A stretch of 20,021 bases of DNA from a virus, in the IMG/VR virus record IMGVR_UViG_3300048107_000240, positions 1 to 20,021 of that record; one strand, 5' to 3'. Below are positions 4,884 to 16,010 of this stretch, in pieces. Every line of letters starts with the position of its first letter. Within the stretch, counting starts at the first letter, position 1. The translations under genes were made by a program, and so were the position numbers. The notes under the pieces are model-generated. The model ran no database searches. It saw only the letters and a list, made by a program, of their open reading frames with translations, and was not told the origin of the DNA.

Positions 4884-6008
4884 TTAGAAATCAGAAGGAG
4901 CAGAAGCACCAACATACAGTTCAACAGAAGCTGCAGGATTAAGATAATCACAGCCACACGCTAAACGGCCAAGCATAACGTCACCCTGGTAAACCACGGA
5001 GACATCACCACTGGTTACTTGAACCTGAGGACCAATTGCTTCAACCATACCGGCTGCTTCTTTCTGGAAGATAAGACCACAGGACTTAGAGCCAAATTGG
5101 GCTGCAGTACCATAATCATTATTAATACCAGTTTGAAGATCAGATGCATCTTCAAGAGATTCACCCACGAAGTCACCAGTATTACCAGGTGCGGTTACAC
5201 CAGTTGTACCACCGTAAGCAGTACCATACTTACCAAGGAACGGGATGTTCATTGATTTGTAGATCTTAATACCAGCAATCTCGATGATGCCGTTACCACC
5301 TTGCAAAGCAGTACCTTGTGCATCACGATTAACCAAACCATTGCTACCAACAGCTTGGATCAATTCATAGTACTGACGAGGGTTCAGGACAGCTACACGG
5401 CCATCAGAAGTAACTCCCTTTTCGTCAAGAGCAGAAGCTGCATCATAAAATGCAGATACCAAGTTAGAAGCAACGTAAGCATCAGAATCGTTAGTTGTTG
5501 CACCAACACGAATCTGTGTACCACCGGGCTCAACATAACCAGTTGCACTGATAGGAGAACCCTTACGTGCACCACGTGCAATAGCACGGAATGCAAGACG
5601 GTCATACTTTTCTGCAAGAGCGTAGCCGATCTTACGTGAGATTTCAGAACGAAGATCGTAGTGAGAAAGTACTTCGTCCAATTCATAAACGAATGCTGAA
5701 CTGATGAGAAGATCATCTACCGTGATCGTCTTTTCAGCCACTGGAGGAGCATTGTTGCTATCTCCGAGAATAGAATTTCCAGGCGTATGAAATTCACTTT
5801 TGGTACGACCTGTGAAGATGAACTGCAATGATTTGCCGTTCTTAAGTGTACGCTTCATGATCAAATCACGAGCGATTGTATTGCGTTGAAATCCTTTGAA
5901 CATTTCTCCACTGAACAACTTCAAGTAGAGAGCGCGGGTCTCACCCGCCAAGTTAGCCTGACCCAGCTGAGTTAGCTGAGCGGGGTTAACAGAAGATTGA
6001 AAAGCCAT
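4884..6008 (-). CDS. Major capsid protein (T7 gp10-like)
   Basis: A 374-residue protein, similar to the 345 residues of T7 gp10A. It starts MAFQSSVNPAQLTQLGQANL and contains ALYLKLFSGEMFKGF, GKSLQFIFTGRTKSEFHTPG and VDDLLISSAFVYELDEVLSHYD, the typical beginning of the HK97-fold capsid proteins of T7-like cyanophages. The middle region includes LNPRQYYELIQ and EIAGIKIYKSMNIP, which are also family-typical. The gene stands alone between a 380-base structured leader and a strong terminator, and base composition is more GC-rich and codon use more uniform than in neighbouring tail genes, as expected for the most highly expressed gene. I see no sign of a gp10B-style frameshift at the 3' end: the stop is followed closely by the terminator. 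There is only a weak ribosome-binding site before ATG 6008. Confidence 0.95.
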   Translation of the reverse strand: MAFQSSVNPAQLTQLGQANLAGETRALYLKLFSGEMFKGFQRNTIARDLIMKRTLKNGKSLQFIFTGRTKSEFHTPGNSILGDSNNAPPVAEKTITVDDLLISSAFVYELDEVLSHYDLRSEISRKIGYALAEKYDRLAFRAIARGARKGSPISATGYVEPGGTQIRVGATTNDSDAYVASNLVSAFYDAASALDEKGVTSDGRVAVLNPRQYYELIQAVGSNGLVNRDAQGTALQGGNGIIEIAGIKIYKSMNIPFLGKYGTAYGGTTGVTAPGNTGDFVGESLEDASDLQTGINNDYGTAAQFGSKSCGLIFQKEAAGMVEAIGPQVQVTSGDVSVVYQGDVMLGRLACGCDYLNPAASVELYVGASAPSDF

Positions 6009-6011
6009 TTT

Positions 6012-6053
6012 AAAAAGAGAGTAATAGTATATCGACTCTCAAAGATCTTTGAG
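6012..6053 (-). promoter_or_regulatory. Two competing hairpins just upstream of the capsid start
   Basis: A perfect 16-base palindrome, CTCAAAGATCTTTGAG, occupies 6038-6053. On the minus-strand RNA the last bases of that palindrome (6040-6035, GAGAGT) can instead pair with ACTCTC (6022-6017) across a 12-base loop, and this second stem is followed at once by TTTTT (6016-6012). The two folds share bases 6038-6040 and so cannot both be complete. The second looks like a weak intrinsic terminator or an RNase-processing stem only a few bases before the capsid ATG. The role is inference. Confidence 0.5.
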
Positions 6054-6082
6054 TTATTAAATTTGTATTGTAGTCTTTCCTA

Positions 6083-6094
6083 CCGTCATGACGG
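6083..6094. repeat. 12-base perfect palindrome in the capsid leader
   Basis: CCGTCATGACGG is a perfect inverted repeat in the noncoding part of the leader, 75 bases upstream of the capsid start. It could be a protein-binding half-site pair or a small RNA hairpin. Nothing else in the sequence identifies a partner. Confidence 0.4.
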
Positions 6095-6132
6095 CAAAGG
6101 TTATCCTCGTAAGGGCCAATGCCAATAGTGAT

Positions 6133-6151
6133 GAGGGGAATTGCACCCCTC
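6133..6151 (-). other. GC-rich 6-bp hairpin in the capsid leader
   Basis: On the minus strand GAGGGG, a 7-base loop TGCAATT and CCCCTC form a perfect stem. There is no T-run behind it, so it is not an intrinsic terminator. The loop resembles a tRNA T-loop, but no acceptor, D or anticodon arms can be matched around it. It starts about 14 bases after the stop of the micropeptide gene and could be an mRNA-stabilising or processing structure. Confidence 0.5.
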
Positions 6152-6164
6152 TGTAAGATCTATC

Positions 6165-6212
6165 TCACTTGGTGTACTTGACACCGCGATAGCAATAAGT
6201 CTTGCTCTGCAC
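6165..6212 (-). CDS. 15-residue YRGVKY micropeptide downstream of riboswitch-like RNA
   Basis: A GTG start at 6212 lies 5 bases after a perfect AGGAGG, the best Shine-Dalgarno in the noncoding stretch, and opens a 15-codon frame, MQSKTYCYRGVKYTK, ended by TGA. The YRGVxY motif is the hallmark of the short cyanobacterial DUF4278 proteins, which often carry two such motifs. The same frame continues after the stop with SYRGVQF, a second copy of the motif. The gene follows an RNA fold resembling the Downstream-peptide class, which is named for the very short genes that follow it. Function is unknown. The evidence is the ribosome-binding site, the motif and the context; the tiny size leaves real doubt. 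Confidence 0.45.
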   Translation of the reverse strand: MQSKTYCYRGVKYTK

Positions 6213-6217
6213 AGTAA

Positions 6218-6223
6218 CCTCCT
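6218..6223 (-). promoter_or_regulatory. Consensus Shine-Dalgarno of the micropeptide
   Basis: AGGAGG is a perfect ribosome-binding site, unusual here because most genes in the window are packed with overlapping starts and weak sites. It is 5 bases from GTG 6212. The segment GGAGGTTA (6222-6215) is complementary at 7 of 8 positions to the loop TAAACTCC of the upstream hairpin (6350-6343), so it could be masked by RNA folding. Confidence 0.6.
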
Positions 6224-6240
6224 AAGAAGCTCCACAAGCC

Positions 6241-6283
6241 CCGTTCCATGCTTATGGTGTCATGCGTCCCGAAGGATGAACGG
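6241..6283 (-). ncRNA. Three-stem structured RNA resembling a glutamine riboswitch core
   Basis: On the minus strand the element opens with CCGTTC and closes with GAACGG, a 6-bp outer stem. Inside are a C(UUCG)G tetraloop hairpin (TCC-TTCG-GGA) and a small CATG...CATG hairpin, giving a three-way junction. The fixed-looking pieces CGTTCATCC, GGACG and GGAACG in this order match what I remember of the core shared by the glnA and Downstream-peptide glutamine aptamers of cyanobacteria and their phages. It lies 18 bases upstream of a consensus Shine-Dalgarno and a very short gene, as the Downstream-peptide class does. The fold is read directly from the sequence; the ligand is inference. Confidence 0.55.
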
Positions 6284-6335
6284 ACGTGTGCAGTTGTAGT
6301 GGCCCCAGGTTTTTCCAGTCCTAGGTCCGTAACCG

Positions 6336-6357
6336 TTCCTTGGGAGTTTACAAGGAA
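6336..6357 (-). other. 7-bp hairpin upstream of the riboswitch-like element
   Basis: Minus-strand TTCCTTG and CAAGGAA pair perfectly across the 8-base loop TAAACTCC. A T5 run precedes rather than follows it, so it is not a terminator. Its loop is complementary at 7 of 8 bases to the Shine-Dalgarno segment of the micropeptide gene, which suggests a kissing or pseudoknot interaction. Confidence 0.5.
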
Positions 6358-6371
6358 AAATCAGATATTAT

Positions 6372-6389
6372 GTGCCTCTGAGGGGGCAC
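6372..6389 (-). terminator. Possible weak terminator after the outer-membrane-like gene
   Basis: One base past the stop at 6391, GTGCC and GGCAC pair across an 8-base loop. A T5 run appears only about 11 bases after the stem, too far for a classical intrinsic terminator. It may be an mRNA 3'-end stabiliser or a weak terminator separating the lysis-type genes from the capsid leader. Confidence 0.35.
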
Positions 6390-6390
6390 G

Positions 6391-6741
6391 TTAAAAGTTA
6401 TACTTGACGCCTACTTTCGTACCGTAATCATTTACGTCGTCAAAGCTTGCAGACAGTTCACCATATACAGACACACGATCTGTTGCTTGGATAGATCCGC
6501 CCAGCTTACCTGTCAACTTGGTCTCTTCTTCACCACCATCAGGTGCGAAGATAGTAGGACCAGCTTGGATATAGTAAGAGCCTACATCATTACCTGATTC
6601 ATAACCCAGATGAAAATCTGTGGCATGGCCATTAAAATTAGATCCACTAAAGCCAGCGTTGTTCTCAACGTTCACGTAGGGACTAGCGATTGCAGGAGTA
6701 GCAAGGAAAGCTACGGCAGGGAGGATAGCAAAAAATTTCAT
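6391..6741 (-). CDS. Small outer-membrane beta-barrel-like protein with signal peptide
   Basis: A 116-residue protein with a clear Sec signal peptide: MKFFAILPAVAFLATPAIA is a charged start, hydrophobic core and AIA cleavage site, leaving about 97 mature residues. The mature part alternates polar and hydrophobic residues (VSVYGELSASF, GTKVGVKYNF) and ends in Phe, the signature recognised by the outer-membrane assembly machine. The mature length is short for an eight-stranded barrel such as OmpX (about 148), so it may form a small or oligomeric barrel. Its ATG overlaps the stop of the lysozyme-like gene by 4 bases, so the two are probably translationally coupled. It could help disrupt the outer membrane at lysis, alter surface permeability or block superinfection. 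The export and barrel prediction is good; the role is inference. Confidence 0.75.
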   Translation of the reverse strand: MKFFAILPAVAFLATPAIASPYVNVENNAGFSGSNFNGHATDFHLGYESGNDVGSYYIQAGPTIFAPDGGEEETKLTGKLGGSIQATDRVSVYGELSASFDDVNDYGTKVGVKYNF

Positions 6742-14060: not shown

Positions 14061-14185
14061 TTACCTTGGCCTCTATATTTCTTTTTACCTTTACGTGGCT
14101 TACTATGCAAACCGTTACCTTGACGGGTTTTTTTTGATGTAAACGGGACTACGGTTTGTACTCCCATCATTGATTTACTTCTCAT
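14057..14185 (-). CDS. 42-residue basic small protein
   Basis: ATG 14185 overlaps the polymerase stop by one base (TAATG), and the stop overlaps the exonuclease start in ATGA, so it is neatly inserted between two replication genes. It begins MRSKSMMGVQTVVPFTSKKT and ends RGQGK, with a lysine-rich middle (SKPRKGKKKYRGQ). The second half is almost entirely Lys, Arg, Gly and Pro, suggesting nucleic-acid binding. I do not recognise a family. Perfect coupling at both ends and the absence of other coding capacity in this gap support a real gene. Confidence 0.72.
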   Translation of the reverse strand: MRSKSMMGVQTVVPFTSKKTRQGNGLHSKPRKGKKKYRGQGK

Positions 14186-15510
14186 TAGTGGGTTTCACTC
14201 CAGTTGTTTCCGGTTTTTGCTTCTGCGTCGATTCTGATTCTGAGGTTGTAGTATTCTCCAGCTGCGAGACTGCTAAATACCAAGGATGTTGATAAGTCAG
14301 CTGTTTGTTCAGGGGAACACTCGAATTGCAATTCGTCATGTATAAAGGCTAGTTGTGAACAACATAAATTTAATTCTTTAATGTTTTGTTGGTTGATAAC
14401 CATCCAACGTTTAGCCAGGATGGCGGAGTTACCTTGAAGACAATAGTTTAACGCTTTATGCGGGCTATCCACCATAATTTTTCTGCCATCGATAGCTTTG
14501 ATAAATCCTCTTTCTGAAGCTGTCTTGATAGCCTCCAAAAGTTTATCGAGTCCATCAATTGCATCAATGTACGCCGATCTGATCTCTTTACCTTTTTTCT
14601 TTGCTTTCGTGGGTGAAAGAAGTTTGTCATAACTGTGTCCAATTTTTTCGTCACCTGCACCATACAGGAATGCGTAAGTAACTGTCTTAACTAATTTCCT
14701 AGAGATACCTATCTTGTCAGCGTTGACCTGATGTATATCTCCATTGAGGAGGATGTCCGCATATCTTCCATCATCATATCTGGCAAGGAAATGAGACAAC
14801 ATACGTAACTCAATCCCAGACAAATCAGCAGCGACCATGACTTGACCTGGAGATGGTAAGAAAAGTTCTCTAAATCGTGGGTCACTGGGAACTTGGGCAA
14901 GGTTTGGGTTTCGGTGTGCGCATCTAAAAGTTGAAGTAGCGACAGAACAATGATGATGTATCCTATTAGCAGTCGTAGATAGCTTCAGCCAAGCGTTCGC
15001 GCCTTCTGATATCATTCCAAGCATCTTCGTTATCGTCAAAATCTGGAGGAATGCAAGGGCAGTCTCTGTTCCTATCTCTTTCAGTATCGGTTCGTCGATG
15101 ATAGGCTTCCCAGTAGGTGTCTTCTGGGTTGGAGTCCAACCATGAAATGTTTGCAGGATCCATGCTATATGATCTCGTGATGTAGGATTTAGTTCTTTAA
15201 GGCGTGTAAAGGAGCACTGCTGTATTTCAATTAATATGCCACAGTGTTCATGTTTTTCGGTATAGTCAGTACCTTTGACATAGCCTTGGGTCCGATTATC
15301 TCGCTTAGGAGTAAATACTGGTCCGGCAACGTAAGGATGCCTGTCACGTAGTAGTTGATAAGTTTCTTCAAGCTCTTGTCTGAGAGTTGATGCAAGTTTC
15401 CATGCAGAGCGTTCATCAAAATACCATCCATGTAGTTCTTGTTTTGTGAGGATTTGTGCTGCGTCATGTTCTAACGCAACCCATTCAGGTATGGCTGGAA
15501 GTGTTTCCAA
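14185..15510 (-). CDS. DNA polymerase, polymerase domain (split T7 gp5-like)
   Basis: A 441-residue family A polymerase domain without its exonuclease half. PEWVALEHDAAQILTKQELH corresponds to the T7 start of the polymerase domain (VDIEHRAAWLLAKQERNG). Further on are NPTSRDHI, CAHRNPNLAQVPSDP, motif A VAADLSGIELRM (D229), the O-helix RKLVKTVTYAFLYGAGDEKI (R271, K275, Y279, Y283) and motif C FIHDELQF (H391, D392). All catalytic residues are present. The frame opens only three codons after a TAA, the sole nearby start is TTG 15510 with no Shine-Dalgarno, and the next Met is at residue 164, inside the domain. It overlaps the exonuclease gene by 40 bases in the -1 frame, next to an A6 run. Expression may need frameshifting; a sequence error is the alternative. 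Confidence 0.9.
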   Translation of the reverse strand: METLPAIPEWVALEHDAAQILTKQELHGWYFDERSAWKLASTLRQELEETYQLLRDRHPYVAGPVFTPKRDNRTQGYVKGTDYTEKHEHCGILIEIQQCSFTRLKELNPTSRDHIAWILQTFHGWTPTQKTPTGKPIIDEPILKEIGTETALAFLQILTITKMLGMISEGANAWLKLSTTANRIHHHCSVATSTFRCAHRNPNLAQVPSDPRFRELFLPSPGQVMVAADLSGIELRMLSHFLARYDDGRYADILLNGDIHQVNADKIGISRKLVKTVTYAFLYGAGDEKIGHSYDKLLSPTKAKKKGKEIRSAYIDAIDGLDKLLEAIKTASERGFIKAIDGRKIMVDSPHKALNYCLQGNSAILAKRWMVINQQNIKELNLCCSQLAFIHDELQFECSPEQTADLSTSLVFSSLAAGEYYNLRIRIDAEAKTGNNWSETH

Positions 15511-16010
15511 AGTTTTTTAGTAACAGTAACGTCTTGTATCATGTAGTCTTCCATTTCTGGTGACCACTCTTTCCAATCGGTATCTTTACAGTAATCACCT
15601 TTAGCTTCGTCAAGGCGGTAACCCCAAGCAGCTAGTGAATGTGATCCGTAAAGTTTAAGTGGCATACCAGGCCAAGTCTTTTGTTTATCCCATTCCATCA
15701 TGTTCGGGTGATAAAGACGGCTAAGCAAAAGAGTATCCAAGCAATCACCAATACGTCTAAACCATGGATAAAACTTATTGATGATGCTAAGGTCATAATT
15801 AATAATGTTATGACCGACAATACAATCAGCGTCTTCGAGGTATTGGATAGCGCGGACGATAGGCTGCGTTGCTTGTTTTTCTGTTGCTGACGTAAACGAT
15901 TGATCATTAAAGACCATCGTTTCTTTAGTGTCAGTGTCGTAGATGCAAATGCAGTGGATTTTGGTAGCATCATTTAATAGTCCGTCTGTTTCTAAATCAA
16001 AGATCAGCAT
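15471..16010 (-). CDS. DNA polymerase, 3'-5' exonuclease domain (split T7 gp5-like)
   Basis: A 179-residue DEDDy proofreading domain that matches the first 180-odd residues of T7 gp5. Exo I is MLIFDLETDGLL (D5, E7), Exo II is GHNIINYDLSIINKF, and Exo III is YMIQDVTVTKKLW with Tyr and Asp in place. Between them, PLKLYGSHSLAAWGYRL is the usual Exo-domain signature of T7-type polymerases. The protein ends LWKHFQPYLNGLR where the continuous T7 enzyme would lead into the polymerase domain. The start is directly against the stop of the 43-residue gene, with AAGGA six bases ahead of ATG. The domain could act as a separate subunit or as the front part of a frameshift product with the next gene. Confidence 0.92.
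   Translation of the reverse strand: MLIFDLETDGLLNDATKIHCICIYDTDTKETMVFNDQSFTSATEKQATQPIVRAIQYLEDADCIVGHNIINYDLSIINKFYPWFRRIGDCLDTLLLSRLYHPNMMEWDKQKTWPGMPLKLYGSHSLAAWGYRLDEAKGDYCKDTDWKEWSPEMEDYMIQDVTVTKKLWKHFQPYLNGLR
15513..15518 (-). other. A6 slippery-type run at the DNA polymerase split
   Basis: On the minus strand the exonuclease frame reads ACT AAA AAA CTT TGG. A -1 slip on the second AAA would continue as ACT TTG GAA into the polymerase frame, bypassing its upstream TAA, and give an uninterrupted exonuclease-polymerase protein. The heptamer is not a canonical X XXY YYZ site because the first base is T, so slippage may be single-tRNA or transcriptional. Confidence 0.5.

Follow-up and report, generated by a model that had tools for sequence, protein, structure and literature searches.

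A probable glutamine-II riboswitch for a YRGxxY micropeptide ahead of the capsid gene in T7-like marine cyanophages, with aptamer variants that contain a gene in the P1 loop

Upon binding glutamine, type-2 (glutamine-II) riboswitches turn expression on; they are tied to the DUF4278 domain, which matches the N-terminal portion of IF17, a glutamine synthetase inactivating factor (PMC6316151). Their proposed mechanism is translational and operates by way of a ligand-stabilised pseudoknot (PK), in the groove of which glutamine sits (PMC6698751). In marine picocyanobacteria, for example upstream of PMM1846 in Prochlorococcus, this class (the Downstream-peptide motif, RF01704) has the same core of P1, PK and P2 as the element described here, and likewise a Shine-Dalgarno sequence and a short DUF4278-type ORF directly 3′ of it. 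The host Prochlorococcus and Synechococcus genomes that were checked hold 1–10 RF01704 copies each; many of the host aptamers precede DUF4278-type proteins of 55–65 aa in which YR[GR] is repeated two or three times, and one such protein passes the Pfam DUF4278 model (42.4 bits).

Glutamine aptamers have also been met in marine phages, as here. They are mentioned for the T4-like cyanophages S-SCSM1 and S-CREM1 (PMC9602691, PMC9964418), and in another marine phage, Melnitz, a glutamine riboswitch is linked to tmRNA (PMC9004378); the relevant passages of these accounts mention neither nested genes nor a capsid position in T7-like phages. Our search of the openly licensed literature found no account of either a T7-like capsid-leader position or a gene nested in an aptamer, and the novelty of both is accordingly provisional.

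The DNA analysed here, referred to as the window, is a 20,021-nt viral stretch (IMG/VR record IMGVR_UViG_3300048107_000240). Relative to the picocyanobacterial loci, its glutamine-II copy stands within a long run of genes, ahead of the one for the capsid; its peptide is 15 aa long with a single YRGxxY, as against 55–65 aa in many hosts; and its P1 loop is a natural UUCG, at a place where relatives house a whole gene. We propose, with a probability of about 0.78, that this is a genuine glutamine-II riboswitch of a T7-like marine cyanophage, which controls translation of a 15-codon YRGxxY micropeptide, a cut-down relative of DUF4278 proteins.

The aptamer and its conservation

In the 20-kb window, a single match at the Rfam gathering level was obtained (cmscan, Rfam 15), namely RF01704 on the minus strand at 6233–6285, an interval that includes three flanking nucleotides. 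The score of 42.8 bits stands against a gathering cut-off of 33 bits, model positions 1–60 are matched in full, and the E value is 1.3e-7 over the whole window and 2.7e-9 in a permissive scan of 411 bases (5990–6400), where nothing else credible appeared. The 14 control genomes gave no Rfam gathering matches. The glutamine-I (glnA) model, RF01739, had no match in the window at gathering level, nor in the permissive scan, and in this the window element, which scores as glutamine-II only, differs from the compact second aptamer copies of T4-like loci that do match RF01739 (38.8 bits in L439 and 35.9 in L470). A preliminary description of this DNA, made from the sequence alone, had offered the Downstream-peptide and glnA classes together; the covariance search that it proposed returns the former above threshold, and with the covariation and conserved core set out below the glutamine-II half of that assignment stands while the glnA half falls away.

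The anatomy of the element was assigned by visual comparison with the crystal structure in the literature (PMC6698751). Proceeding along the minus strand, the first ordered core piece, CGTTCATCC, is read at 6282–6274, and the 5′ strand of the PK helix, CGUUC (6278–6282), complements GGAAC(G) at 6247–6242 and is invariant in 26 of 26 phage aptamers. The P1 hairpin of the Rfam structure, UCC-UUCG-GGA, occupies 6267–6276, and its natural UUCG loop is the very tetraloop that the crystallographers engineered (PMC6698751). The core piece GGACG is read at 6269–6265, followed by the CGC linker strand (6264–6266) that enters the PK groove; CGCA is invariant in the phage aptamers, and in the crystal-structure model, mapped onto the window by eye, the last C of the linker pairs with G6241 (PMC6698751). 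The P2 hairpin (6232–6257) comprises 8 bp, 6257–6250 with 6239–6232, includes covarying pairs and holds the PK strand GGAACGGG in its loop; the 3′ PK strand GGAACGG (6241–6247), which contains GGAACG (6247–6242), is again invariant in 26/26. The pieces named in the preliminary description were thus all found on the minus strand and in the order given there. Overall, CGUUCA, CGCA and GGAACGGG with their PK complementarity are all present, as are the glutamine-contact nucleotides named in the structural study (PMC6698751). In each of its testable features the window element belongs to glutamine-II, and it is predicted to bind the ligand. The plain minimum free energy (MFE) fold has a z of −1.56, which would be weak as sole evidence, and the case for the aptamer therefore rests on the covariance-model score and on covariation.

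Comparison loci were gathered by a capsid-protein search and a DNA pattern search of IMG/VR, supplemented with isolate genomes. Our own covariance model, built on 26 diverse phage aptamers whose core columns are invariant, scores the element at 50–79 bits in most related phage loci, and isolates that carry the aptamer include P-SSP7, S-RIP1, S-TIP37, S-RIP2, 9515-10a, NATL2A-133, P-SSP10, P-GSP1 and P-SSP3. Across 80 distinct phage sequences, 98.0% of the P1/P2 cells are paired, and 146 cells carry double changes relative to 37.5 ± 4.5 after shuffling (none of 500 shuffles reached as high). Compensatory changes on both sides were seen at nine of the ten P1/P2 pairs; in P2, double compensatory changes occur in relatives at all seven modelled pairs, and in P1 the pairs exchange as UA/CG/AU and CG/UA and are 100% formed. 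With slid partners as controls, the pairing signal collapses. The covariation envisaged in the preliminary description is thus present in both stems, far above chance. It also contradicts the notion that the aptamer is a decaying relic taken from a host, a reading to which we give almost no credence: although the aptamer is wholly absent from some relatives, its core is invariant in 26/26 representatives, and where it is lost it is lost together with the peptide.

The micropeptide and the expression platform

The micropeptide ORF, VQSKTYCYRGVKYTK, runs on the minus strand from a GTG at 6212 to a TGA at 6165 (15 codons), with the Shine-Dalgarno sequence AGGAGG (6218–6223) 5 nt ahead of the start, both as noted in the preliminary description; its YRGxxY motif takes the form YRGVKY. 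Using as criterion an ATG or GTG ORF with Y.G..Y within 15–60 nt of a 3′ aptamer half, we found a YRGxxY micropeptide ORF after 148 of the 151 unique T7-type 3′ halves and in none of 481 control windows. These ORFs are 13–51 codons long, and Y, R, G and Y are invariant among 94 distinct core sequences. At the codons for R and G, the entropies are 0.15/0 at the first position (H1), 0/0 at the second (H2) and 1.34/1.19 at the third (H3), which means that variation is almost solely at third positions and synonymous. Of the 52 capsid loci for which 800 nt or more of upstream sequence was available, 39 have both aptamer and peptide and 13 have neither; the two are gained or lost jointly. The co-occurrence in 148/151 cases and the restriction of changes in the R and G codons to synonymous ones support the micropeptide as a real gene under selection.

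With respect to the origin of the peptide, its 15 residues fall below the 20-residue limit of the Pfam search, and longer relatives were scored instead against PF14105 (gathering score 25.3 bits). A 38-aa relative from the T7-like phage S-TIP37 reaches 14.1 bits with DUF4278, below the cut-off, and a 40-aa peptide with two YRG units on the viral contig L096 reaches 28.2 bits, above it. By sequence resemblance, the micropeptide is likely to be a cut-down relative of host DUF4278 proteins that has kept a single YRGxxY unit. It could be argued that the ORF is a cis-acting leader of which the translation matters and not the product, for instance by shielding or exposing downstream RNA and so tuning capsid translation. 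The ORF is indeed very short (13–51 aa), its site before the capsid gene does not vary among T7-like phages, and a structured RNA element directly follows it. Such a leader would, however, have no need to hold YRGxxY while its synonymous sites vary; the glutamine aptamers of T4-like cyanophages precede two-YRG proteins of 38–47 aa with no capsid gene near, the 40-aa peptide above passes Pfam DUF4278, and the downstream RNA element is retained in phages that have no riboswitch. We therefore regard a purely cis-acting leader as improbable.

The RNA is likely to be a translational ON switch for the YRG peptide, a view that we hold because the element belongs to the glutamine-II class, whose ON behaviour is published. 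In a glutamine-replete infected cell, the ligand would lock the pseudoknot, the Shine-Dalgarno sequence and GTG start would thereby be freed, and the peptide would be made. The peptide would then probably act in trans on host nitrogen metabolism and not on the capsid gene, with glutamine synthetase or its DUF4278/IF17-type partners as putative targets. When the aptamer fold was imposed on 110 loci, mean accessibility of the Shine-Dalgarno sequence rose from 0.314 to 0.333 (p = 0.002), with no gain in the window itself. A possible expression-platform strand in the window is CTGCACA (6287–6293, minus strand), complementary to TGTGCAG (6213–6207) at the GTG start, a weak candidate predicted in the MFE fold. 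Within the clade of the window, GTG starts are mostly accompanied by an upstream GCAC and some ATG starts by CAUA, with exceptions, and the duplex of the upstream 45 nt with the start region has a mean z of −0.39 compared with 0.08 in controls; an anti-start helix is thus supported in only part of the set. Read-through of a terminator was also considered as a switching mode and was rejected, as there is no terminator-like site in 6000–6420.

These observations show that a glutamine sensor of the host type, coupled to a minimal DUF4278-like micropeptide, is widespread among T7-like cyanophages, whose hosts are abundant cyanobacteria of the ocean. Whether phages control the nitrogen status of the host or respond to it thus becomes directly testable in P-SSP7 and other model isolates.

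The capsid gene and a second structured RNA

The major capsid gene lies downstream at 4884–6008 on the minus strand, where the DNA matches annotated T7-like cyanophage capsid genes, and relatives of its protein are encoded in 585 viral stretches. The position ahead of the capsid gene of a T7-like phage that was described earlier is borne out more widely, at 39 of 52 capsid loci, and in relatives the aptamer mostly stands 270–600 nt ahead of the capsid start. The further suggestion that late or capsid expression might be affected fares less well. The peptide ORF has its own stop and the capsid ATG lies 156 nt beyond; between them is a separate conserved structured RNA, outside the riboswitch, at 6042–6151 (minus strand), recognised by covarying pairs in a 33-sequence alignment. 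It comprises a hairpin resembling the T arm of tRNA, GAGGGGUGCAAUUCCCCUC (GGGGUUCGAUUCCCC in relatives), or the variant CACCUCAGAGUCGGAC, and then UUGGC...CC-UACG-GGAUACC...GCCG and the hairpin GUGG-GAUAGA-CCAC. Pairs within it exchange as AU/UA/GC and GC/UA/CG (RNAalifold, 33 sequences), the interval 6042–6151 has no credible Rfam match and contains no tRNA, and the element is retained in phages without the riboswitch (L025, L026 and L063).

Because the peptide ORF ends 156 nt before the capsid ATG and this separate conserved RNA intervenes, control of the capsid gene by the riboswitch is not supported. A broader form of the idea, in which the aptamer would chiefly control the capsid operon through transcription or mRNA stability such that late expression tracks the nitrogen status of the cell, draws on the conserved synteny and on the 270–600 nt that mostly separate aptamer and capsid start. 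Against this, 6000–6420 has no terminator-like site, the capsid gene has its own leader with the second RNA, a quarter of the related phages lack the aptamer yet have the capsid leader, and T4-like phages have no capsid gene near the element; we consider control of the capsid operon highly improbable, and control of the micropeptide remains the preferred reading.

Several other features of these gene rows were noticed. The gene upstream of the riboswitch, at 6391–6741 on the minus strand, encodes a cyanophage outer-membrane-like beta barrel (PF24653, E 2.7e-39), and in several relatives psbA takes its place and ends ~10 nt before the aptamer. In a T7-like phage (L072), a group I intron (RF00028, 94.8 bits) lies at 1056–1284 inside the major-capsid match, which at 964–2311 is longer than usual. 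The DNA polymerase region of the window (14185–16010, minus strand) consists of two overlapping ORFs, identified by eye as an exonuclease-like N-terminal part of 179 aa (15471–16010) and a polymerase-like C-terminal part of 441 aa with a TTG start (14185–15510), on the same strand; the gene may be split or frameshifted, or the sequence may contain an error.

Genes in the P1 loop

At seven of the 52 capsid loci, the aptamer seemed degenerate to the covariance model and proved on reading to be intact but split. One of these is the nearest relative of the window (L005, capsid 97% identical), whose P1 loop holds a complete gene. In the split aptamers, the 5′ half is CGUUCAUCC or closely similar to it. 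Next comes an ORF of 53–60 codons, with its ATG within the P1 5′ strand or adjacent to it and its stop codon either in the 3′ strand of P1 or in the conserved GACGCAUGA; the 3′ half, with P2 and GGAACGGG, follows in full. Homologue searches and scripts brought together 141 unique nested elements, with genes of 52–70 codons and 153–227 nt between CGUUCA and CGCA (n = 141); the start codon begins 9–18 nt past the first base of CGUUCA, and the stops end between −9 and +16 nt from CGCA. Examples are at 1965–2186 in L048, 560–790 in L005, 2155–2347 in L490 and 1476–1930 in L484. The nested ORFs have a pooled pN/pS of 0.25–0.26, indicative of purifying selection. Pair 3 of P1 is formed in 141/141 elements (C-G, U-A, U-G or G-C), compared with 116 ± 2 when partners are shuffled, and pairs 4 and 5 likewise exceed all shuffles; the uninterrupted P1 helix averages 7.5 bp in the T7 type (4.6 shuffled) and 5.6 bp in the T4 type (3.7 shuffled). 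In 108 of the 141, two or three nucleotides of the start codon are paired in the P1 register.

The nested genes of T7-like phages belong to phrog_628 and lie in glutamine-II aptamers, and those of T4-like phages belong to phrog_6471 and to phrog_504 or kin and lie in tandem glutamine-I-like aptamers, often one gene in each, followed by a YRG protein. Five isolates have the nested form: P-HM2, P-RSM4, P-SSM4 and P-SSM3 (two nested genes in tandem), and the T7-like S-SBP1, in which the nested gene is gp32, between psbA and the capsid gene. Assembly artefact was rejected as the source, the same arrangement being found in these cultured isolates. Rfam models miss or truncate nested copies; the inserted gene breaks the models, which is why the T4-like copies are invisible to them and probably why the nested variant stayed hidden from standard RNA searches. 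Nested proteins had no significant Pfam match where tested, and phrog_628, phrog_6471 and phrog_504 are families of unknown function; no kinship was detected between phrog_628 and phrog_6471 (hhalign probability 0.4%). The phrog_628 protein is confidently predicted to be a two-helix hairpin (mean pLDDT 90.9). Its gene also occurs free-standing, at 39 unique loci without aptamer halves and in many T4-like isolates; insertion of the gene into the aptamer, or its escape from there, therefore seems to have taken place. Nesting requires six changes on the capsid tree for six nested rows, at least three of which are forced by well-supported branches. In host genomes, phrog_6471 was met in one of 16, a MAG labelled Rhodospirillaceae; the contig concerned (L306) carries a cyanophage-type nested aptamer and a YRG ORF and is probably a mis-binned phage contig.

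Group I introns can carry ORFs in peripheral loops, and the nested form is like them in housing a protein gene in a loop of a structured RNA; it differs in that the housing RNA senses a metabolite and that the start and stop codons overlap helices and core. As CGUUC is locked in the PK, the AUG lies in or at P1 and the stop codon falls within the core or next to it, folding of the aptamer and translation of the nested gene should be mutually exclusive. A formed aptamer would block ribosomes from starting on the nested gene, and a ribosome that reached the nested stop would cover the aptamer. This could amount to a two-way switch, in which closure of P1 by the ligand would hide the nested start at a time when the downstream peptide is switched on, and ribosomes translating the nested gene would keep the aptamer from forming. 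A long insert in the P1 loop is structurally plausible, since the crystallographers split the aptamer into two molecules and obtained glutamine-induced assembly (PMC6698751).

The nested anatomy is observed; that phages use it as a glutamine-controlled toggle is what we infer. We see the chances as evenly balanced that cyanophage aptamers serve as gene-housing switches, in which one glutamine-sensing RNA toggles a nested gene and the YRG peptide oppositely, with repeated origin and with different genes in T7-like and T4-like phages. If true, this would be a new wiring of genes, in which a ligand-binding fold and translation of an inner gene exclude one another. Alternatively, the aptamer halves of the nested variants may be no more than conserved flanks of an interchangeable gene cassette, and nesting may have no regulatory meaning. 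The patchy gene content of the P1 loop on the capsid tree would suit such a cassette, as would the presence in the loop of at least three small-protein families, two of which were compared without detectable kinship. That account is nevertheless doubtful, in that compensatory changes maintain P1 pairing across the insert, the core is retained in full, with PK strands, CGCA and 3′ half, such that the RNA seems still to fold around the gene, and the start and stop codons are at fixed places in P1 and core. Enlarged P1 loops of tens of bases with no obvious ORF were also noticed in capsid-leader aptamers (L024 at ~1865–1975, L029 at ~5493–5603 and L023 at 455–517), which are possibly remnants or a third kind of insert.
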